A stretch of 22,075 bases of DNA from IMG/VR virus record IMGVR_UViG_3300043436_001092, positions 1 to 22,075 of that record. The stretch is one strand, 5' to 3'. This stretch comes from a virus. The notes below the pieces were generated by a model that was given only the letters and a program-made list of their open reading frames with translations, was not told the DNA's origin and did no database searches. The translations under genes were made by a program, and so were the position numbers. Numbering within the stretch: the stretch's first letter is position 1; every line of letters starts with the position of its first letter. This document shows, one piece after another, positions 1 through 18,699 of the stretch.

Positions 1-92
1 TGTGCTGCGACTGTCAGTTCTCGGATTTCTGCCTTCATTGATTTGAAGTCAGGTTTGTTGACGGTTAAGTCAATAGATGCGTTTAATGCCAT
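1..92 (-). CDS. Start of a phage tail-module protein (partial, cut by window edge)
   Basis: Only the first 30 codons are inside the window, starting MALNASIDLTVNK. The start codon overlaps the stop of the preceding 907-residue tail gene as TAATG, so it is translationally coupled to it. Its place after the tail genes and a start resembling some phage tape-measure proteins (a short beta-strand-like segment, then a charged helix) suggest a tape-measure or other tail protein. Thirty residues cannot settle this. The gene continues beyond the left edge. Confidence 0.6.
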   Translation of the reverse strand, partial: MALNASIDLTVNKPDFKSMKAEIRELTVAA

Positions 93-2815
93 TATTTTTC
101 TGCTATTATAAAGTAATCCACGCCATCAGTTTCAAAGATGTGTGATGCCCAATGTTGATTGATTGAATGTGTATCCGCACCGTCAATCTTTGCCGTTCCA
201 GTTGTATCAACGGTGATGGTATGTGCGGAAGTTAATTTTTTCACTACAAATTGTTTCCCGCTTAAACCCGTTGGATCAGGCAAGGTGATTGTCTTGTTTC
301 CACTTGTGGTATCAACCAAAAACAATCTGTCGTCTTTTGTTGCCGTTGTGTTTGCCGTTACCGTCTTCACCGAACCACCACTCAAAAATGATGGGTACAT
401 CTCGTAATTGCCGACATAGAGTGTATCGGGTTTTGTTACGGTGAAATCCTCACAAACCAAAGCAACTGAACCATCACTCCCCAAACCAAAGACAACATCC
501 TTCAAACCAAAGCCCGAATTGTTGTTGTTTACTGCTGGTTGAATTATCCCATCACCTACAAAAACCCCATTTCCACCACCCTCATTTGTACCTACGCTGA
601 TACCTCGGATATTTGGGTTTACTGGATTGCTTCCGCTTGGATAAATATCACCGTAGGTTTCCTCACTTTGTCCTCCACCCGTTCCGCTTCCAATCGTTTT
701 GTTTGTGATGGTTGCCGGTTGTATAAACTGAGCCAATAAGAATTCGCACAAATACACACCATCGGTCATTGGATTGTAGTTCTCAACTTGATTTAATCTC
801 CAGTATTGTCCTTCAAAGAAATATAGATTCTTGAATTGTAGGTTGTACCAATCAGTTGGAGTGATGCGAAAATATGCTCTAACTATCTTTGAGTTTTTGT
901 TGGTGATTTCACTCAAAAAACGATAGTAAAAATTCGTTACCAAATTTGAATTCCCATAACGATATCCAGCACCAACACCAATCTCTTTTGGCATACCAAA
1001 AAGAATGTCAAAAGTTGGATTGCTCAATGAATCGTAATGAATTGTCAATGGCAAAGTGCTTCGGGTTGAATAGGCGGTAGGACTTGCAAACAATCTCCAA
1101 GTCACGCCCGATTGCAAACCTGAATAATACAGGATCCTCAAATCACCATCCTTTTGTGAATCCACATAACTCAAGATGAAGTTTCTTTGCTTGGTGGTAT
1201 AACTCTTGATTTGAGTTGGTGCAAAAATGATTTCTATTTTCTTGTCGGTCTTGACAAAATCATTATCAATTTGGTATGTCCGTGATCCGTAGGTTGATTG
1301 GTAGTTGGCTTGATATTCTTTGTTTGATGTATCGTTGCCTTGCTTGTAACTGAACATATACGGATTGGCATCCAGTTCCCCCATTGGAACAATTTCCACA
1401 GGTTGTGAATAATCCAATTTGTCTGTCCAATCTACATTCACCCCATTATAGAATTCATCTCTTGGAACACATCGCAGAATCTTGGGTTGGTCTTTGTCGG
1501 GTTCAATGTATAGGTTGAACATCTTGACAAACGACATCAACATCTCGCTTTGCTTCACCTCGGAGTTCAAGAAAGTTCCCAAATCTATCGCATCCCCATA
1601 GCCAATTGTAGTGGCGTTTTGGTCATTCCAAAATACGGAGTTGGTTAACAAGCCAATTGAAAATTGAGCATTGCCCAAATATCCTGAAGGTGAACCGGCA
1701 TTGTAAATTCCTTTGAATCGTATTGTGACCTCATCCCCAGCATTCAAATTGATGTTGTTGAATGTGATATAGGAATTGTGGGTGAATACAAATTGAATTG
1801 ATCCAAGTGATTCCCAACTTACCTCAACAAGTTGATTGTTGACATACAAGCCAATCTCTAAAGTGGTATCCGTATACAACCCAACGGGTGTGATTTGAAG
1901 TTCCAAATCTGCATTGAATACAAATTGTCCCGATACTGGTGCGGTATATGTTCCAGTAGTCGGATTGTAATCGTTCCCGTTGTCAAAGTTTCCACTCGTT
2001 GAATCGTTTTGAAACAAAAAGATTGTTCCGTTTTGAATGGATTGTGCCGTTGTGATTCTTGTTGCTTGGAATTGTCTGCCTTGAATGGTGGATGAACTCA
2101 ATGACAATCCGTTTGGTGGTGGGATTACAAGCCTTTTGAATCTCTCGTTATTGAAATACGAATCGTTGGTGTATGAATACCCAGCATCGGTAAAGATTTT
2201 GTCAACAATGGTCTTTGCATAAAGGCAAGGTGTCATCCCAATCACGGCAAAATCCAAGATGTTCCGTGTGTTTGAGAATCCCTTATCAATCATTGAATAC
2301 AGATAACCTTCTCCGAGTGCAAATGCTTGTGAGCTTCCGTTCTTAATTATGGAAGTATCCCACGAATCAACCACCACGCCCGAAGACAAGGTGTGATTGT
2401 ACTCGCTGAAATCCAACTCATTTAGTTTGCGTTCTGCGATAGTTGTGAATAGGTCAGCAGTTTGTCCGTGAATGCTACATTCGTAAACGATTGCCGTGCT
2501 ATCTGTGACATTAATTTGAATCAAGCGGATGAATCCCCTCAACTGCTCTATCTCGTCCAATAGAACAACCGCAGATGCCTTTTTGTTTGGGTTGAAATCG
2601 GGTGCGAATTGTGTGGATGTTCTAACCGTGTGTTCAACCTCAAAGATGTGGGAGAATAGTTTGTTGTTTTGTGCCGTTCCTGGGATGGTGATTGTCTTTG
2701 TCCATTCCGAAGATCGTGATTGTGGTTCACGGATGTCGGCAATTGCCTTGTTGATTGAGATGTCAAAATCAGCAGACAAATCAACTGGGGTGTTGTTGAC
2801 CAATAGCCTGATCAT
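92..2815 (-). CDS. Large phage tail/baseplate-like structural protein (907 aa)
   Basis: This is the longest complete gene in the window, on the transcript distal to the tail-chaperone locus. The N-terminus (MIRLLVNNTPVDL, followed within about 40 residues by a SSEWTKTITIPGT segment) resembles a class of Bacteroidetes phage tail proteins of unknown exact role. The middle is rich in aromatic, Thr, Asn and Gly residues, as in beta-sandwich virion proteins. A Gly/Ser-rich linker near residues 715-770 precedes a C-terminal domain with DDRLFLVDTTSGNKTITLP and ending FETDGVDYFIIAEK, which looks like the terminal beta domain of receptor-binding or fibre proteins. The start overlaps the upstream stop as ATGA, and the stop overlaps the next start as TAATG. 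I infer a distal tail or host-contact protein; no enzymatic motif is visible. Confidence 0.75.
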   Translation of the reverse strand: MIRLLVNNTPVDLSADFDISINKAIADIREPQSRSSEWTKTITIPGTAQNNKLFSHIFEVEHTVRTSTQFAPDFNPNKKASAVVLLDEIEQLRGFIRLIQINVTDSTAIVYECSIHGQTADLFTTIAERKLNELDFSEYNHTLSSGVVVDSWDTSIIKNGSSQAFALGEGYLYSMIDKGFSNTRNILDFAVIGMTPCLYAKTIVDKIFTDAGYSYTNDSYFNNERFKRLVIPPPNGLSLSSSTIQGRQFQATRITTAQSIQNGTIFLFQNDSTSGNFDNGNDYNPTTGTYTAPVSGQFVFNADLELQITPVGLYTDTTLEIGLYVNNQLVEVSWESLGSIQFVFTHNSYITFNNINLNAGDEVTIRFKGIYNAGSPSGYLGNAQFSIGLLTNSVFWNDQNATTIGYGDAIDLGTFLNSEVKQSEMLMSFVKMFNLYIEPDKDQPKILRCVPRDEFYNGVNVDWTDKLDYSQPVEIVPMGELDANPYMFSYKQGNDTSNKEYQANYQSTYGSRTYQIDNDFVKTDKKIEIIFAPTQIKSYTTKQRNFILSYVDSQKDGDLRILYYSGLQSGVTWRLFASPTAYSTRSTLPLTIHYDSLSNPTFDILFGMPKEIGVGAGYRYGNSNLVTNFYYRFLSEITNKNSKIVRAYFRITPTDWYNLQFKNLYFFEGQYWRLNQVENYNPMTDGVYLCEFLLAQFIQPATITNKTIGSGTGGGQSEETYGDIYPSGSNPVNPNIRGISVGTNEGGGNGVFVGDGIIQPAVNNNNSGFGLKDVVFGLGSDGSVALVCEDFTVTKPDTLYVGNYEMYPSFLSGGSVKTVTANTTATKDDRLFLVDTTSGNKTITLPDPTGLSGKQFVVKKLTSAHTITVDTTGTAKIDGADTHSINQHWASHIFETDGVDYFIIAEK

Positions 2816-3945
2816 ATGCGTTGCGATTTGTCAGCGAATGAAAGAGTGATGTCAAGTTCTAAGTTAAACATCCTATCTTGTACCGTCTTTTTCTGCTCAT
2901 AGTTGGCATTATCAATGTTGACCGCATACAAAGTGCCGTCATACATATACACCACCGGAGATTCAATCAGGTCTTTCAGCCAAACAGATTCGGTGTCGTT
3001 TATCCAGTTGCTGAAGAGTTTGATTTTTTGGCTTGTTTCTGTGTGATAATTTGTGCGAGTTCTTGCGGATGTTTGATATCCGTATGTTGCACCGAGTGTG
3101 TATGGGTTCTGTTGGAATTGCTTTCGTGTGACTTCAAAGTTGTCTCTTCTCACCATATTAAAACGGAAGGATTCAAATCCTCCCAAACGGTTCATAAAGA
3201 AGATGTCAGTTGTTTCATACTTACTGCACTCATCCTTTATGTTGAATCGGTATGTCTCGGATTTGGAAGTACCTCCAGCCTTTAACACCACATCAAAATA
3301 GGTTGCACCACCGGGGATTGTCAATTGACTGCCCACGGGGATTCTCACAACCTTAGACGAAGGCAAAGAGAATGTTTGTGTACTGGCATCGGAGTAAGTA
3401 ATTAAAACGCTTGTAGCATCTCCCTTCAAACAATAGAGCCAATCCTTTTGCGTTCTATGGATTGTCCGTGTTCTCACATTGGTCAAGAACTTTGCGGATG
3501 TGGATGTGGCGAGATATTGCCCTTCAGCATATGTCACCAAATCAAATGGATTCAAGGATGCGTTCCAAACCGTTCCAGTTGCCGAAGTCAAGTCAAGGTA
3601 TTCGGTGATTGTTCCCGTTGCCGATGGTGAATACTCATAACCAAATTCAACCTCGTAATCCGTGAATGAGTTTACGCATCCGCTTGGTGATGAATCGGTG
3701 AACTCCCAATTGTTAGTCACATAAGATTCCAAGATTCGCCCAATGTTGAACACACCTTTGTTCGTACTTCCAAAATAGATGGGTGCTTTGAGTTTTGCAA
3801 CGGTAGTTGATGCGACCTTGACATCAGCAATGAACTTGAAATTGTCCTTTGTGTAGATACCACCTGAAGATTCCGTGATCACGAAGTTCGTGTCATTGAA
3901 TGCTGGATGATAAGTATTGGGTTGTTGAGTGATAGATAATGCCAC
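2812..3945 (-). CDS. Phage tail-module protein, unknown exact role (377 aa from a GTG start)
   Basis: The open frame extends up to 4044, but the extra 33 residues are Cys- and Trp-rich, unlike the rest, and overlap the end of the upstream frame at 3980. I prefer the GTG at 3945, which gives a protein starting VALSITQQPNTYHPAFND and an AT-rich upstream region (ctatttttgtgt). The protein is Thr-, Tyr- and Asn-rich with alternating hydrophobic residues, typical of beta-rich virion proteins. The C-terminal part (about residues 280-377) keeps aromatic segments such as GGFESFRFN. Its stop overlaps the next gene as ATGA. The position between the probable tail chaperone and the 907-residue tail protein argues for a tail or baseplate component. 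I do not recognise a specific family. Confidence 0.7.
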   Translation of the reverse strand: MALSITQQPNTYHPAFNDTNFVITESSGGIYTKDNFKFIADVKVASTTVAKLKAPIYFGSTNKGVFNIGRILESYVTNNWEFTDSSPSGCVNSFTDYEVEFGYEYSPSATGTITEYLDLTSATGTVWNASLNPFDLVTYAEGQYLATSTSAKFLTNVRTRTIHRTQKDWLYCLKGDATSVLITYSDASTQTFSLPSSKVVRIPVGSQLTIPGGATYFDVVLKAGGTSKSETYRFNIKDECSKYETTDIFFMNRLGGFESFRFNMVRRDNFEVTRKQFQQNPYTLGATYGYQTSARTRTNYHTETSQKIKLFSNWINDTESVWLKDLIESPVVYMYDGTLYAVNIDNANYEQKKTVQDRMFNLELDITLSFADKSQRI

Positions 3946-3979
3946 ACACAAAAATAGCACTCGTTGGAATGCGTTCCAT

Positions 3980-4740
3980 TTACAACATTTCGTGCAGACA
4001 AGCCACAACATAAGCATTGAATCCCTTTGTCGCTGCCTGTTCAATTCGCTTCTGTCTCTCCTTTGTTTTCTGCTTATAGAATGCGATGGTGTTCAAGAAC
4101 TCAATCAACGGCATTGTGAGAATCGCATCCCACTTTGTACGATCTCCTTTGACAATTCTGTCAACTAATTCCAACCAACCTAACGGACTTGCGTTATCTC
4201 CTTGTTCAACTTCTCCATCTCCTTGATCAAATAAGATTGGATAGTTTTCAATAACTCTGGATAAACTGCCGAAAAAAAAAGCGAATAAGAATAGGGAAGC
4301 GGAACTTCCATTGACAGAAACAAATCACACTTGTCTTGATAGTGTGCTTGTGCATCTTTGATGGTCTTTGACTTGCCGAAGAAATCCACCTCGTATGCAA
4401 GTAAAGCCATTATCTTGTGAAGGCTTTCAATCGTATCTCCGTTGAACACTTGCTGGAGTTCAATGAAATGGTGTCCACAAATCTCGTTTGGTGTTTTTGC
4501 CAATCGGAAGTATCTGCCTTTGTGTTTGAACATAAATTGCACAGGACGGTTTGGAAGCTCATTCAAGAACTCCAACTTTTTGAATTCTCTGGTAAGGTCA
4601 TCAATCGGCATTGATTCCACCTTGTCCATTGACCAATGGTTAACGATGGCAAGAATGTTCATTGTCCGTTCAATGTTGGACATATCACGACAAGAGTGAA
4701 TCTCTTGCAGTTGGTGGATGGTTATGTTGTTCCAGTTCAT
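3980..4740 (-). CDS. Predicted -1 frameshift fusion of the probable tail assembly chaperone (253 aa)
   Basis: The 186-codon gene starting at 4740 contains the codons CTT TTT TTT TCG at 4281-4270, a run of nine T. A -1 slip on T TTT TTT (4279-4273) moves ribosomes into a frame that stays open to a stop at 3980. It would join 156 residues to a 97-residue extension that begins FGSLSRVIENY and contains GWLELVDRIVKGDRTKWDA. The extension also holds the lone 64-codon frame that starts at TTG 4174. It reads as real protein: a helical segment and a charged KQKTKERQKR stretch. Long-tailed phages conserve this layout in lambda G/GT-type chaperones, which bind the tape measure and tail-tube proteins. 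Slippage is inferred from sequence. An independent TTG-initiated protein, or a homopolymer sequencing error, are the alternatives. Confidence 0.6.
4180..4740 (-). CDS. Probable tail assembly chaperone, unshifted form (186 aa)
   Basis: The protein starts MNWNNITIHQLQEIH and is mostly helical, without transmembrane or catalytic motifs. Residues 65-85 (VQFMFKHKGRYFRL) form a short beta-like segment. The last 30 residues after the slippery run (SAVYPELLKTIQ to ITQVR) are a plausible amphipathic helix, so the unshifted ending looks genuine rather than a broken frame. It lies 21 bases downstream of the large terminase and just before the tail genes. The short form and the frameshifted form would together act as the chaperone pair in tail-tube assembly. 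The assignment depends on the frameshift architecture and the position, not on a recognised domain, so the function is an inference. Confidence 0.7.
   Translation of the reverse strand: MNWNNITIHQLQEIHSCRDMSNIERTMNILAIVNHWSMDKVESMPIDDLTREFKKLEFLNELPNRPVQFMFKHKGRYFRLAKTPNEICGHHFIELQQVFNGDTIESLHKIMALLAYEVDFFGKSKTIKDAQAHYQDKCDLFLSMEVPLPYSYSLFFSAVYPELLKTIQSYLIKEMEKLNKEITQVR
4273..4279 (-). promoter_or_regulatory. Slippery heptamer T TTT TTT for -1 ribosomal frameshifting
   Basis: On the minus strand the frame-0 codons read CTT TTT TTT TCG within a nine-T run (4280-4272). This fits the X XXY YYZ form exactly. The -1 frame beyond it is open for 97 codons. I saw no strong downstream stem-loop by eye. 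Confidence 0.55.
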
Positions 4741-4761: not shown

Positions 4762-5949
4762 TTAAGCAAAATAAAATGTTCCCGGTCTATTGTGTTTCTT
4801 GCAGTCAACTGCCAAAGCCAAAGCCATAACACAGTCATCGTGCAACCCTTGTGGTGCAGTATACCTCACACCCGTTCTTGTGTATTCAAATTCAAAGTTC
4901 TCCATCTCCGAGCCTATGGGTTCTTCAGGAAAATACACCTCCCTATTTTGTACGCTGATGACCAAGCCTTCAATGAGTTGTTGTTTGCTCTGTGATGTGA
5001 ACTTAAACCCTTTGATTCTTGGATGGCTTCGTTGTAATTGCTCAACGATAGGATCACCCACACCAGTTGAATCCACGAATGCTGGAATCACACCAATCAA
5101 TGTCGTAATCTTTGCCAATGTTTGCGACCAATCCGCTTGGAATCGGTCTACATATGATACGCAATTATTCGCATCTAAACCAATGATCACCGTATAATCC
5201 GAATACTTTGCCAAATCCACACCCCAAGCAACAACACTTTTGTTGGTTACTGGCTTATAACAACTACGGATTGCATCAATTCCAAATGGGTTTGTCTTGT
5301 CATCCGCTGGTTCTGCCAAATACAACTCGTTAAAGACATGAAGTGGGAGATCTCGTTTGGCTTGTTCAACCTCTTCAAGTTTGAGAATCCCTTCCTTGAC
5401 CGCATCATATGCAGTTATCTTGAAATACTTATACTCATTCTCACCGCTTCTCGCCCTTTCGCCTAACTTGTAGAACCAATTCTTTTTCCCTTTGACATTC
5501 CCAATCAGTTTGCACTTGCCTTGTGTCGCAGTTAGGGTTGAACGCATAGCATACCAACTCTCCTCACGCATACGAGATGCTTCATCAATCACGGCAGCAT
5601 ACACATCATCCCCATACAAGTTGTCCGGCTTCTCCCCTGATTTGAATTCTATCCTTGCACCCGTTGGAAGAGTGAGCAATAGTTTGGTTTCGTTGCTGAT
5701 GAAGAAGTTCTTGTCGGTTACTTGTGACTTCATCCTTCGGAATGCAATCTCCGCTTGTTGGTATACCGGTGCAACCCACCAAACCGATTGATTGTCCTTG
5801 CATTTTAACGCTTGTTCAAATAACCATATGATGTGAGATGCCGTCTTGCCTGTCTTGGTTGATGCAGCAGTAATGGTAAAACGAGCATCACAATCAAGGA
5901 TGTCTTTTTGGTAACTCGTGACATATGGTCTTTGATAGGTTATTTGCAT
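4762..5949 (-). CDS. terL: Phage terminase large subunit (395 aa)
   Basis: This is the ATP-driven DNA packaging motor and headful or cos nuclease. The N-terminal ATPase domain shows a Walker A motif AASTKTGKT at about residues 28-36 and a Walker B motif AAVIDEA at about 118-124 with its catalytic Glu. A likely coupling motif follows at LIGNVKGKKNWFY (148-160). The C-terminal RNase H-like nuclease domain has GVDLAKYSDYT (Asp245), a central acidic residue in FVDSTGVGDP (Asp293), and a late HDD at 370-372. The length is near the short end for the family but all motifs are present. The start overlaps the end of the upstream glycosyltransferase by 10 bases. The tail-chaperone locus follows directly. 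No portal gene is adjacent; it lies about 14 kb away in this window. Confidence 0.93.
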   Translation of the reverse strand: MQITYQRPYVTSYQKDILDCDARFTITAASTKTGKTASHIIWLFEQALKCKDNQSVWWVAPVYQQAEIAFRRMKSQVTDKNFFISNETKLLLTLPTGARIEFKSGEKPDNLYGDDVYAAVIDEASRMREESWYAMRSTLTATQGKCKLIGNVKGKKNWFYKLGERARSGENEYKYFKITAYDAVKEGILKLEEVEQAKRDLPLHVFNELYLAEPADDKTNPFGIDAIRSCYKPVTNKSVVAWGVDLAKYSDYTVIIGLDANNCVSYVDRFQADWSQTLAKITTLIGVIPAFVDSTGVGDPIVEQLQRSHPRIKGFKFTSQSKQQLIEGLVISVQNREVYFPEEPIGSEMENFEFEYTRTGVRYTAPQGLHDDCVMALALAVDCKKHNRPGTFYFA

Positions 5950-9908: not shown

Positions 9909-10382
9909 TCATACAAGATGTGTATCGTGCTGGAGAGTCCTTTGGTGCAAGTAATCACATAATAACTGAACGGATGTTTCATAGGTTTGTCTTGTGGTTT
10001 TGTCGTGTGTAACTAAATTATCAAAGACATTGATGGCATTCATCACGCTGGAATGGTCTCTCCCCAATATATAGCCAATTGAACTAAATGTCATCTTCAA
10101 GTGCTTACGGCAAAGGAAGGAAAACATATGACGGGCATACACAACCGATTGTTTTCTCAAGGATGAAATCACAAGATCAGGTGTGACATCGTAGGCTTGA
10201 CAACAAACCCTCATCGCATCTGTCCAGTCAGCATCAATGCTATTCAAATCGCACTTGGGTTGAATGATTTCTTGTTTAAGCCTTTTAATTTCTTTGTCGT
10301 GCTTGACGGTTATGTCAGCAATCTGTAAACGCAATCTGCGAATCTCTTGCTTCAGGTTGTGGGTTTCTTGATACGGGTTCAT
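9909..10382 (-). CDS. DnaA domain IV-like DNA-binding protein with coiled-coil N-terminus (157 aa)
   Basis: Residues 5-40 are a heptad-like, highly charged coiled coil (LKQEIRRLRLQIADITVKHD). Residues 53-145 match the C-terminal DNA-binding domain of DnaA: RKQSVVYARHMFSFLCRKHL (76-95) and the signature GRDHSSVMNA (107-116), which in DnaA contacts the DnaA box. The AAA+ ATPase domain is absent. The protein could dimerise by its coiled coil and bind DnaA boxes at a phage origin, or it could regulate host DnaA. The start overlaps the zinc-ribbon gene's stop as TAATG. DnaB helicase lies two genes upstream of that zinc-ribbon gene, so a role in replication initiation or its control is reasonable but inferred. 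Confidence 0.82.
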   Translation of the reverse strand: MNPYQETHNLKQEIRRLRLQIADITVKHDKEIKRLKQEIIQPKCDLNSIDADWTDAMRVCCQAYDVTPDLVISSLRKQSVVYARHMFSFLCRKHLKMTFSSIGYILGRDHSSVMNAINVFDNLVTHDKTTRQTYETSVQLLCDYLHQRTLQHDTHLV

Positions 10383-10693
10383 TAAAATGTGATTTTACAT
10401 TTGTTACACTTATGTTTGTTTACGGTTTTCAGCAACCATACTTTCCCAAGTTGATTACACTTTGGGCATTTTGGATGTTCTGCAAGTACGATTGAATCAT
10501 AGACGGATTGCCAATACTCGTGACCTTGTGGCGTTTTATCCCATTTGAACGCATCTAACAGCATATCTTGGAGTGTGTTGTAGCATTGTACCTTTTTATC
10601 CTTTTCAACGAGTGAGATGAATTCCTTGTACATTGGCAAATCTTTTGCTTTTGTTCGCAGTTGGTTGAATCTGCGGTAGTCAATTATTTTCAT
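10382..10693 (-). CDS. Zinc-ribbon protein of unknown function (103 aa)
   Basis: The C-terminus holds CPKC (76-79) and CNKC (96-99) separated by about 16 residues, a simple treble-clef or zinc-ribbon arrangement, in a basic context (KTVNKHKCNKCKITF). The N-terminal part is helical, without known motifs. The gene begins 14 bases inside the end of the methyltransferase gene and is coupled to the DnaA-like gene. A nucleic-acid-binding role in replication or modification is likely from the zinc ribbon and neighbours, but the exact job is unknown. Confidence 0.75.
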   Translation of the reverse strand: MKIIDYRRFNQLRTKAKDLPMYKEFISLVEKDKKVQCYNTLQDMLLDAFKWDKTPQGHEYWQSVYDSIVLAEHPKCPKCNQLGKVWLLKTVNKHKCNKCKITF

Positions 10694-12227
10694 TTAGTTC
10701 TTGTATTATTTCAAAAAGTTGATATGCGATTTGTGGAACTATGGCATTGCCGTATCCTTTGATTGATTCTGCTCTCCACTTTGGAAAGGTAATTCCGTCC
10801 AGTTCGGTGGGAAGCCCATCATCTCCGCCACAAACCGGGGATTGAGTTGGGAAGTTTTGCCAATTTGTTGGCTGACATAATGTTTTAAATCCGTTTCTCT
10901 CGGATAATTTTCCGATAAGATTGGAGTTCCGCTGTACTGATCCGATGCCGTTGGTGTCGGTAGCATCCCCATTGCCATTGCTCTTGCTAATGTCACCGAG
11001 TGCATACTCCCCTCTTTGACTTGTGTTGATTTCATTGTTGCCGTTGCGTTCGTTGAATCCATTGCCGTTGGTGTTGGTAGCATCCCCGTCCATTCTATTG
11101 ATGATTGTTCCATCATCCTCGCATTCATTTGTTCGGTTACCGGAAATATCTCCGCAATCTTTATCCATTCCTCTATGCTGGGGTGACTGAATCCCTTCGC
11201 ATCCATCCTGAACCAATGTTCCACCGTTGAGAGTTTCACATCTATTAAGTTTGATAATTCCTTTGAATTGGTCACACTCCGTATCCAATCTACAAATTCC
11301 TTCTGCGGTGGCAAGTTGGTTCGTTTCAACATTGGCTTGTTCGCCAATTCTTGCATCAATGGTTGATTGTCCGACAAGATTTGTTGATGTATCTCCATTG
11401 TCAAAGTTTTTTGAATTGGCTGACCACTTGAACGGTGTGTTGCACCTTGCATCATTTTGGCGGCTGCTGTCATATCTCCATTGTTTGTTGAGTCCATCAC
11501 TGTTGGAGTTGGTAGCATTGAATTTAGTTTCTGTCCCAATGAATAACCTCTTGTCACTCCTATGCTCGGTGCATCCTTCCCGTTCCCTATTGTGTCCTTC
11601 CAGTCCCTCGCATTTGGGGTCGGTAGCATCCCCCTTTGGTAGATAAATCCCGTTTGAACCTCTTGGGCAAGTGTTCCCGAATTCCCGAATCGTTGCTCCT
11701 TCTTGGTGAGATTCTCCGTGTACGCATCCGCTGAACAAGGGGTTTTGAGCAATAAACCAGCATCTGTCTCTGCGATGCGGAGCGTTTTTGGCTGCAGCAC
11801 AAATAATAAACGGCTGAACTTCGTACCCTTCATTTTCCAAGTCAAGGCACACCTGCTCGAATACCAATCCGCCATCAATATTCGTGATACCAAAAACATT
11901 TTCTGCGATGACATATTTGGGTTTAATCTCTTGTATTGCTCTAAGCATCTCGCCCCACAAGTAGCGTTCATCATCTGTGCCTTTTCTTTTTCCGGCAAGG
12001 CTGAAGGGTTGGCAAGGGAATCCTCCAGTAAGAATGTCAATTTTGTTTGCATATTTTTTAAAGTCAGTTTTACATATATCAATGTGACTATCCGCATTTG
12101 GAAAGTGATAGTCCAATACTTTTCGTGGGAACTCCATCCATTCGCAATGAAAGACATTCTCCCATCCCATCCACTCGGCAGCGAGATCAAACCCACCTAT
12201 TCCGCTAAACAATGACCCGTGTTTCAT
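10680..12227 (-). CDS. DNA (cytosine-5) methyltransferase (515 aa)
   Basis: This Dcm-type enzyme transfers a methyl group from S-adenosylmethionine to C5 of cytosine. Motifs appear in order: motif I FSGIGGFDL (7-15), motif IV GGFPCQPFS (68-76) with catalytic Cys72, motif VI ENV (109-111), motif VIII APHRRDRCWF (149-158), and motifs IX/X KWRAESIKGYGNAIVPQIAY near the end. Between about 165 and 450 the sequence is poor in hydrophobic residues and rich in Asn, Gly, Asp, Thr and Arg with GDATxTNG-type repeats. This is a much longer variable region than usual. That same DNA holds a second long frame. No restriction enzyme is adjacent, so it is an orphan methyltransferase, probably protecting phage DNA from host restriction. 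It is coupled by ATGA to dnaB. Confidence 0.92.
   Translation of the reverse strand: MKHGSLFSGIGGFDLAAEWMGWENVFHCEWMEFPRKVLDYHFPNADSHIDICKTDFKKYANKIDILTGGFPCQPFSLAGKRKGTDDERYLWGEMLRAIQEIKPKYVIAENVFGITNIDGGLVFEQVCLDLENEGYEVQPFIICAAAKNAPHRRDRCWFIAQNPLFSGCVHGESHQEGATIREFGNTCPRGSNGIYLPKGDATDPKCEGLEGHNREREGCTEHRSDKRLFIGTETKFNATNSNSDGLNKQWRYDSSRQNDARCNTPFKWSANSKNFDNGDTSTNLVGQSTIDARIGEQANVETNQLATAEGICRLDTECDQFKGIIKLNRCETLNGGTLVQDGCEGIQSPQHRGMDKDCGDISGNRTNECEDDGTIINRMDGDATNTNGNGFNERNGNNEINTSQRGEYALGDISKSNGNGDATDTNGIGSVQRNSNLIGKLSERNGFKTLCQPTNWQNFPTQSPVCGGDDGLPTELDGITFPKWRAESIKGYGNAIVPQIAYQLFEIIQELNENN
10739..12196 (-). CDS. Second overlapping frame inside the methyltransferase gene (up to 485 aa)
   Basis: This frame is shifted +1 relative to the methyltransferase and stays open for 485 codons. 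The start is uncertain; ATGs at frame residues 1, 14, 75, 76, 95, 100 and 108 are candidates. From about residue 110 it reads like protein: DWYSSRCALTWKMKGTKFSR (110-129), KKEQRFGNSGTLAQEVQTGF (165-184), and four LPTP units (191, 228, 373, 412). A helix-turn-helix-like segment SKELSNLIDVKLSTVEHWFR (311-330) follows, and the end has SQLNPRFVAEMMGFPPNWTE (449-468). I recall these signatures from phage DNA-methyltransferase-associated proteins. The first 100 residues are not recognisable. It could be a separate protein from an internal start, a frameshift extension, or a relic frame. Expression is not demonstrated. Confidence 0.5.
   Translation of the reverse strand: MGLISLPSGWDGRMSFIANGWSSHEKYWTITFQMRIVTLIYVKLTLKNMQTKLTFLLEDSLANPSALPEKEKAQMMNATCGARCLEQYKRLNPNMSSQKMFLVSRILMADWYSSRCALTWKMKGTKFSRLLFVLQPKTLRIAETDAGLLLKTPCSADAYTENLTKKEQRFGNSGTLAQEVQTGFIYQRGMLPTPNARDWKDTIGNGKDAPSIGVTRGYSLGQKLNSMLPTPTVMDSTNNGDMTAAAKMMQGATHRSSGQPIQKTLTMEIHQQILSDNQPLMQELANKPMLKRTNLPPQKEFVDWIRSVTNSKELSNLIDVKLSTVEHWFRMDAKGFSHPSIEEWIKIAEIFPVTEQMNARMMEQSSIEWTGMLPTPTAMDSTNATATMKSTQVKEGSMHSVTLARAMAMGMLPTPTASDQYSGTPILSENYPRETDLKHYVSQQIGKTSQLNPRFVAEMMGFPPNWTELPFQSGEQNQSKDTAMP
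10947..11634 (-). repeat. Dispersed degenerate repeats encoding LPTPT / GDATxTN
   Basis: Four related copies lie near 10947-10970, 11064-11088, 11501-11520 and 11611-11634. On the plus strand their shared core is close to TTGGNGTNGGTAGCAT, usually followed by CCCC. In the methyltransferase frame they give GDATDTNG-like peptides. In the overlapping frame they give MLPTPTAxD. Confidence 0.7.
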
Positions 12228-14923: not shown

Positions 14924-15205
14924 TTATGGTTTTGTTTTGTATCCCAGTTCTGTTAGGATTTTTTTTTGGTGTTTTTGTCGCAGCTCATAGGTCGCACCTC
15001 TCAATTCGGGATCATCTAACTGCAACCGTTGACGGCATCTGCGGATGGTTTCCGCTGGTGTTAACTTGCCTGATTCCAAACGATGGAAGAAGTTGAACAG
15101 ATTTGATTCGCTTCGCCAAATCATTGACATCAAAAGGTTGTCATTGTCTCTTGTTTGTGGATATTGCTCAAGCAATTTCAACACAAGTTTTTTGGTTACA
15201 TTCAT
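14924..15205 (-). CDS. Conserved-looking phage protein of unknown function (93 aa)
   Basis: It starts MNVTKKLVLKLLEQYPQTRD and contains the segment KLTPAETIRRCRQRLQLDDP (47-66) followed by ELRGATYELRQKHQ. This resembles small helical proteins I associate with Bacteroidetes phages. In them a 'gklt..etI.R.rqklq...pelRg..ye.R' pattern recurs. Basic residues in this helix may indicate DNA binding, but no standard motif is present. The start overlaps the stop of the 57-residue gene as ATGA, and the stop is 13 bases before the ParB-like start. Confidence 0.75.
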   Translation of the reverse strand: MNVTKKLVLKLLEQYPQTRDNDNLLMSMIWRSESNLFNFFHRLESGKLTPAETIRRCRQRLQLDDPELRGATYELRQKHQKKILTELGYKTKP

Positions 15206-18162: not shown

Positions 18163-18699
18163 TTACAATTTTATATCTTCCGAGAATATCAAATCTCCGA
18201 AACGAGCATTTAACTCATTCACCAATTCCATCTGTATTGATTCCGTGAACGCACTTTCAAGGAATGGCTTTGGCTTTGTACCTACTTTGTGAATCTTTTT
18301 TGCAATGGCTTTTGCATATGAATCATAGGTAAAATCTTCAGGTGGTTTGACGGCTTTGAATGCCATCCATTCTGCGATTGACTGCCACAAATATGGTGTG
18401 CCTTCAATGTGACCATTTCTTGTTGGCTTCCTTCCGTATTCCACGAACTCCCAGTAATCTTCTGCGAGAAGAATCGTGTTGATGGATGTGGGTGATTTGG
18501 TTATCTGTCCGGGGACAAAAGATTGTCTCAACGAAGATGATGCGTTTATCTTTTTACTGTCAAGATTCGCCCAAATCGGAGGGATCACCTTCTTGTTCCA
18601 CCAATCAATGATGATTTGCTGAAGGAGTGAGCCTTCGGAAGCATCCCCTAAATAAGTATCAAGGGCATCGGGTAATTTGTCAAGGTCTATTGTAGCCAT
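18163..18699 (-). CDS. HK97 gp10-like head-tail connector or tail-completion protein (178 aa)
   Basis: The N-terminal half contains a helical region (DALDTYLGDASEGSLLQQII). The central YWEFVEYGRKPTRNG (82-96) is typical of the HK97 gp10-like family in which a 'EyGt.p...' segment is found. The C-terminus KPFLESAFTESIQMELVNEL (143-162) is also typical, matching the family's 'pfl.pA......' helix. The gene overlaps the upstream membrane gene by 13 bases. It is the last structural gene before the recombination operon. The assignment to a neck or tail-completion role rests on this pattern and on neighbours. Confidence 0.7.
   Translation of the reverse strand: MATIDLDKLPDALDTYLGDASEGSLLQQIIIDWWNKKVIPPIWANLDSKKINASSSLRQSFVPGQITKSPTSINTILLAEDYWEFVEYGRKPTRNGHIEGTPYLWQSIAEWMAFKAVKPPEDFTYDSYAKAIAKKIHKVGTKPKPFLESAFTESIQMELVNELNARFGDLIFSEDIKL

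Follow-up and report, generated by a model that had tools for sequence, protein, structure and literature searches.

Uncultured tailed phages of one large family carry, directly after the DNA-packaging gene (terL), a gene that very likely makes both a short and a long protein, as judged from its sequences. The best explanation is that decoding changes frame by -1 in a programmed manner at nine consecutive Ts, and the two products are most likely tail-assembly chaperones.

The gene and its slip site

The window, a 22,075-base IMG/VR viral record, carries the chaperone-like gene on its minus strand (Table 1). Decoded normally, it would yield a 186-residue protein. In a minority of cases, decoding would slip at the T run, and the predicted product is a fusion of 253 residues, composed of the 156 shared residues and a new, helical C-terminus of 97 residues, which replaces the 30 residues unique to frame 0. 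The codons across the run are CTT TTT TTT TCG (wider context TCG CTT TTT TTT TCG GCA), so that a heptamer of the X XXY YYZ type, T TTT TTT, lies in frame, and the first codons after a -1 shift read TTC GGC AGT from position 4273 downwards. The initial annotation had proposed this heptamer and the 97-codon open -1 frame. Both were found as described, and its figures for the fusion, the frame-0 tail and a 64-codon orphan frame are all correct. The latter, a TTG frame in the ORF listing (3980-4174), is merely the end of the -1 frame.

Table 1 Features of the frameshifted gene and its neighbours in the window.
Feature	Position	Strand	Details
Frame-0 gene, short (G-like) product	4180-4740	-	186 aa; ATG 4740, stop 4182-4180; residues 1-156 common to the fusion, 157-186 frame-0-only tail
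T9 slip site	4272-4280	-	C-TTTTTTTTT-C; T TTT TTT at 4279-4273
-1 frame extension, C-terminal part of the predicted long (GT-like) product	3980-4273	-	97 codons and stop (3982-3980)
Overlap with dual coding, open in frame 0 and in -1	4183-4273	-	Lowered synonymous divergence
Terminase large subunit (terL)	4762-5949	-	Immediately upstream of the frameshift gene
388-aa protein	2812-3978	-	phrog_35281, unknown function; family of P12024S gp44; immediately downstream
907-aa probable tail fibre/baseplate protein	92-2815	-	

In the AlphaFold model of the frame-0 protein (pLDDT 87), the slip site is located inside the last helix (147-185). The model of the C-terminal extension is of low confidence (pLDDT 64), and its structure search was uninformative. 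The window contains a second nine-base homopolymer, an A9 on the minus strand (14967-14959) near the end of a 93-aa gene (14924-15205), which lacks an extended alternative frame. The T9 is therefore not unique in the window, and its distinctive features are its conservation and the new frame that it opens.

Conservation of the T run and dual coding

Relatives were collected by scanning viral contigs, with single proteins or with alignments as queries, and a scan returned up to 276 of them. The fetched loci were reduced to 136 distinct sequences, whose frame-0 proteins form 42 clusters below 97% identity, the most distant being 36% identical to the window protein. Many of these loci may share a sampling campaign, and some hardly differ from one another. 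They are thus only partly independent, and the weight rests on the 42 clusters. A scan of bacterial genome contigs found no relatives.

The run is T9 in 121 of the 136 loci and T10 in the remaining 15, and its phase is identical in all of them. The slip codons follow the pattern NTT TTT TTT TNN throughout, with CTT or GTT as the first codon. The T10 runs arise because the next codon, TCG, is replaced by TTG, which leaves the frames unchanged. The -1 frame is open in all loci except two, both of which run off the contig end. The conservation of the run and of the open -1 frame, which the initial annotation had named as a check, thus holds among the relatives. Its refuting outcomes did not appear in the relatives: no relative has a T8 or a fused frame, and none has the two frames as unrelated, separated genes.

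As the run occurs in the same phase at every locus, its conservation is far beyond chance in these sequences. Elsewhere in the gene, Phe is encoded by TTT in 45%, Leu by CTT in 21% and Val by GTT in 33% of cases, and in the 1,230 nt upstream, which served as a control, no homopolymer of at least seven bases is common to more than 9 of 128 loci. The conservation of the T9 is, however, in part imposed by Phe residues that are conserved in both frames.

Divergence within the gene points to dual coding behind the run. The mean frame-0 synonymous difference rate per column is about 0.4-0.6 over most of the gene and 0.32-0.36 in the first 20 codons, falls to zero at the three slip codons and stays at 0.15-0.3 downstream of the slip site. 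Among the 42 cluster representatives, the 66 nt after the run contain no stop in either frame 0 or -1, and 139 stops in +1. Over the same stretch, amino-acid identity between diverged pairs is highest in -1 (0.60), followed by frame 0 (0.49) and +1 (0.47). Being both stop-free and the most conserved, the -1 frame is clearly coding after the run. Frame 0 also stays open there, and its tail is only weakly conserved. The identity of this tail, barely above that of the +1 control, speaks against a programmed pair.

The position of the shift is narrowed by a -1 stop that lies only 8 nt before the run in some relatives, which places the shift at or after the run. The T run is the only slip-prone sequence seen at this location. 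Across the family, the first 50 codons in -1 contain no conserved ATG or other start codon. Together, the close upstream stop and the absence of a conserved start argue that decoding enters the extension by shifting at the run and not from a second start, and the conserved -1 protein starts with the run (FFFGSLS...). On these sequence grounds, the frameshift is almost certainly real and programmed.

A counterpart in Nonlabens phage P12024S

In a tblastn search of 50,697 annotated phage records, the frame-0 protein gave no match. The neighbouring phrog_35281 protein, the portal and the DUF6712 protein all lead to Nonlabens (Persicivirga) phage P12024S, in which the gene order is terL (gp37), gp38, gp39, ..., gp44. 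P12024S gp38 holds a T9 in the same phase, and the -1 frame is open from there through gp39 (locus L331, 7137-7831). The two genes are annotated as separate hypothetical proteins (phrog_32199 and phrog_38404).

The fold search is in line with this arrangement. In BFVD, Foldseek matched the frame-0 AlphaFold model to P12024S gp38 with an E-value of 6e-8 and a probability of 1.0. The hhalign comparison of the two frame-0 families was non-significant, yet it aligned the LFF/FF slip position; that of the -1 halves was also non-significant. We take the relationship between the window frame-0 protein and gp38 as real homology on the basis of the modelled fold. The P12024S pair thus resembles the window pair in its position after terL, the T9 and its phase, the -1 frame open into gp39, the fold and the overall gene order. 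It differs in that it has no BLAST-detectable identity to the window family and is followed by more small genes.

Slippage by RNA polymerase or by the ribosome

The run suits a ribosome that slips on T TTT TTT and an RNA polymerase that slips on nine Ts equally well, and the sequence of the fusion is identical in both cases. The initial annotation had assumed a ribosomal shift of the lambda kind. The heptamer fits this assumption, but polymerase slippage at the nine Ts explains the sequence just as well. We mildly favour the polymerase, because no stimulatory RNA structure is visible and no constraint is seen just upstream of the run.

If the polymerase slips, transcripts with 8, 9, 10 or more Us would be produced, and the 10-U class would encode the fusion by ordinary translation. 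We give this mechanism about an even chance. It agrees with the length of the run, which is T9 or T10 at the frame change in all relatives and in P12024S and never falls under nine, whereas a ribosomal heptamer needs seven. According to a review (PMC5009743), runs of 9 As or Ts cause bacterial polymerase to slip. RNAalifold gave no pair and the single-sequence z-scores scatter around zero, so that no stimulatory structure was found among nested structures, and no synonymous constraint is present just upstream of the run. The excess length is not decisive, since the outer two Ts are partly forced by conserved residues in both frames, and T TTT TTT is a legitimate ribosomal slip site as well.

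A -1 shift of the ribosome on T TTT TTT, like that of lambda G/GT, is a somewhat less probable mechanism. All relatives have the exact heptamer in frame, and ribosomal frameshifting is an established mechanism in tail chaperones (PMC5009743). The relatives, however, show no conserved downstream stem, no Shine-Dalgarno-like stimulator is obvious by eye upstream of the run, and the run is always longer than a ribosomal site needs.

Among known systems with slippage at homopolymers, the window gene resembles Citrobacter rodentium tssM1 (A11) and Thermus dnaX in having a homopolymer of at least nine bases, no visible ribosomal stimulator and two predicted length variants. Both of these are cellular genes with A runs, and for tssM1 polymerase slippage was demonstrated by mass analysis of its heterogeneous mRNA (PMC4256274).

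Frame changes at A runs of 8-9 nt upstream of a tape-measure gene in two other phages add to the case for the polymerase. In Flavobacterium phage 11b (locus L335, 17864-20359), an A9 lies at 18173 near the end of gp38, and the -1 frame opens exactly there and continues through gp39. The candidate shift is unannotated, and the pair is located between the major tail protein gp36 (phrog_1407, E 6e-29) and the tape-measure-like gp40. In Croceibacter phage P2559S (locus L336, 14349-15175), gp20 ends at an A8 (14747), and an unannotated +1 frame, about 116 codons long, begins there, just before the tape-measure gene gp22; as a ribosomal site, A8 with a +1 change would not be canonical. In AT-rich phages, however, many ordinary gene ends have a homopolymer with an alternative frame, A runs among them, and the 11b and P2559S cases may be coincidence. 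We therefore regard them as leads and not as firm evidence.

In Flavobacterium phage 6H (locus L334, about 10048-10927), gp10 has 191 aa, the length of a Foldseek match (R9VW65), and behind it lie about 300 unannotated bases in which the -1 frame is open. It was rejected as a T-run case, as only a T6 is present and the frame change could not be placed, and hhalign of the window frame-0 protein against it was non-significant. Among the papers searched, none describes a shift at a T run for a tail chaperone of a Bacteroidota phage. It is conceivable, though we lean against it, that in phages of Flavobacteriia and in their uncultured kin the polymerase, and not the ribosome, sets the short-to-long chaperone ratio by slipping on homopolymer runs (T9 in the window and P12024S, A9 in 11b, A8 in P2559S).

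Genome context and the probable chaperone role

The surroundings of the pair are best read in a circularly permuted relative with overlapping ends, in which the whole gene order can be followed: terL, the frameshift pair, proteins of 391, 818 and 539 aa, an S78-type protease, a scaffold-like protein and the major head protein, then ..., portal, a DUF6712-like protein, ..., lysis, Erf and replication. The tape-measure candidate is the protein of 539-558 aa (558 aa in locus L318: phrog_1506, E 8e-6). It follows the counterpart of the 907-aa protein in relatives and falls beyond the end of the window, and two genes separate it from the frameshift pair. In P12024S, the tape-measure candidate is gp49 (phrog_58, E 2e-4). 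The placement of the pair in the initial annotation, after terL and before tail genes, is correct, with the refinement that the tape-measure-like gene follows two genes further downstream. Chaperones of the G/GT type are expected between the tail-tube and tape-measure genes, but no tail-tube gene was recognised around the pair. This lack, the two intervening genes and the position directly after terL weigh against the chaperone reading.

Several other features were noted in these genomes. The 907-aa protein has a sub-threshold C1q-like stretch at 250-368, and its C-terminus resembles a hypothetical protein of Halorubrum tailed virus 4 and a baseplate wedge protein. In a complete relative (locus L329, 3179-3859), a GIY-YIG homing endonuclease (phrog_314, E 5e-30) lies between the head genes and the portal. 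At 10680-12227, the window has a 515-aa cytosine-methyltransferase-like frame with a middle rich in N, G and D, which is overlapped in another frame by a 485-codon open frame (10739-12196, minus strand).

The chaperone role is probable. It is suggested by synteny upstream of a probable tape-measure gene, by the short/long design and by a weak fold match to the HK97 chaperone. In lambda, the frameshift chaperone plan of G/GT comprises a short and a long product encoded upstream of the tape measure (PMC5009743). The window gene is similar in that one gene of the tail module, upstream of a tape-measure-like gene, has a conserved frameshift and predicted short and -1-extended products. If the analogy with lambda gpG/gpGT holds, the tape-measure protein would be coated by the common domain, and tail-tube subunits would be brought in by the extended form. 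The lambda slip heptamer is G GGA AAG, and the lambda pair adjoins the tape-measure gene. The window gene differs from it in its T9 run, its position after terL and the lack of profile-level sequence similarity.

The initial annotation had proposed the gene as the phage's G/GT-type chaperone pair. The programmed -1 shift and the conserved extension are strongly supported by the relatives, whereas the G/GT identity is likely only, as searches of both halves against the chaperone profiles of Pfam and PHROG gave no match. The same was true of PHROGs searched with all 42 cluster members, and the best PHROG match among the halves and these members is a family of unknown function (phrog_10547, E 0.0015). 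Tail chaperones of the G/GT type are very divergent, and the window family is absent from the Pfam and PHROG libraries.

Structural comparison gave weak matches in the same direction. In VIA-align, the HK97 tail assembly chaperone 2OB9 ranked first of 510 aligned PDB chains, with a Z of 3.2 over 57 residues, which is within the tool's described noise range; all Z values for the frame-0 model were below 5. The alignment covers the N-terminal helical part of the window protein (residues 1-63), while its beta hairpin and C-terminal helices are unmatched. Foldseek of the frame-0 model in the PDB found no match at E 0.001 or better, and in the BFVD fold search proteins annotated as tail assembly chaperones appear as weak matches at ranks 43, 48 and 50. 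Given the tail-module context and the weak fold evidence, together with the absence of profile support, the pair likely works like G/GT and is a candidate member of that type.

A conserved frameshifted pair could also serve another role, for example as a packaging or head-completion protein. The position directly behind terL would suit such a role, as would the lack of a chaperone profile match and of a recognised tail-tube gene. Against it, the downstream tail genes lead to the tape-measure candidate in an order similar to that of P12024S, the HK97 chaperone is at the top of the aligned PDB chains and annotated chaperones occur in BFVD, and a short/long pair made by a shift is a hallmark of tail chaperones. 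We consider such a role unlikely.

The T9/T10 run and -1 frame conserved among relatives, the drop in synonymous divergence and the match to P12024S make an indel artefact, a pseudogene or two independent genes very unlikely. Two separate overlapping genes, the second with its own start, would agree with the annotation of P12024S gp39 with its own ATG, but the conserved -1 protein starts at the run and the family has no common start codon behind it, which leaves this reading highly improbable. Still less credible is a homopolymer indel error or a broken gene: such runs are error-prone in some sequencing chemistries, but 136 of 136 distinct sequences, from many metagenomes, and one isolate agree in phase, and the dual-coding constraint is present.

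Possible implications for tail assembly in uncultured phages

The programmed-shift gene adds a large, unnamed chaperone-like family, with well over a hundred distinct IMG/VR sequences and an unusually rigid slip site. The family is new, its kind, a frameshifted short/long pair, is already known, and its slip mechanism is possibly unusual. In the cultured phage P12024S, annotation splits the frameshifted gene into two. As the T run is conserved in this culturable isolate, the question of ribosome versus polymerase in tail-length control is directly testable by RNA-seq.
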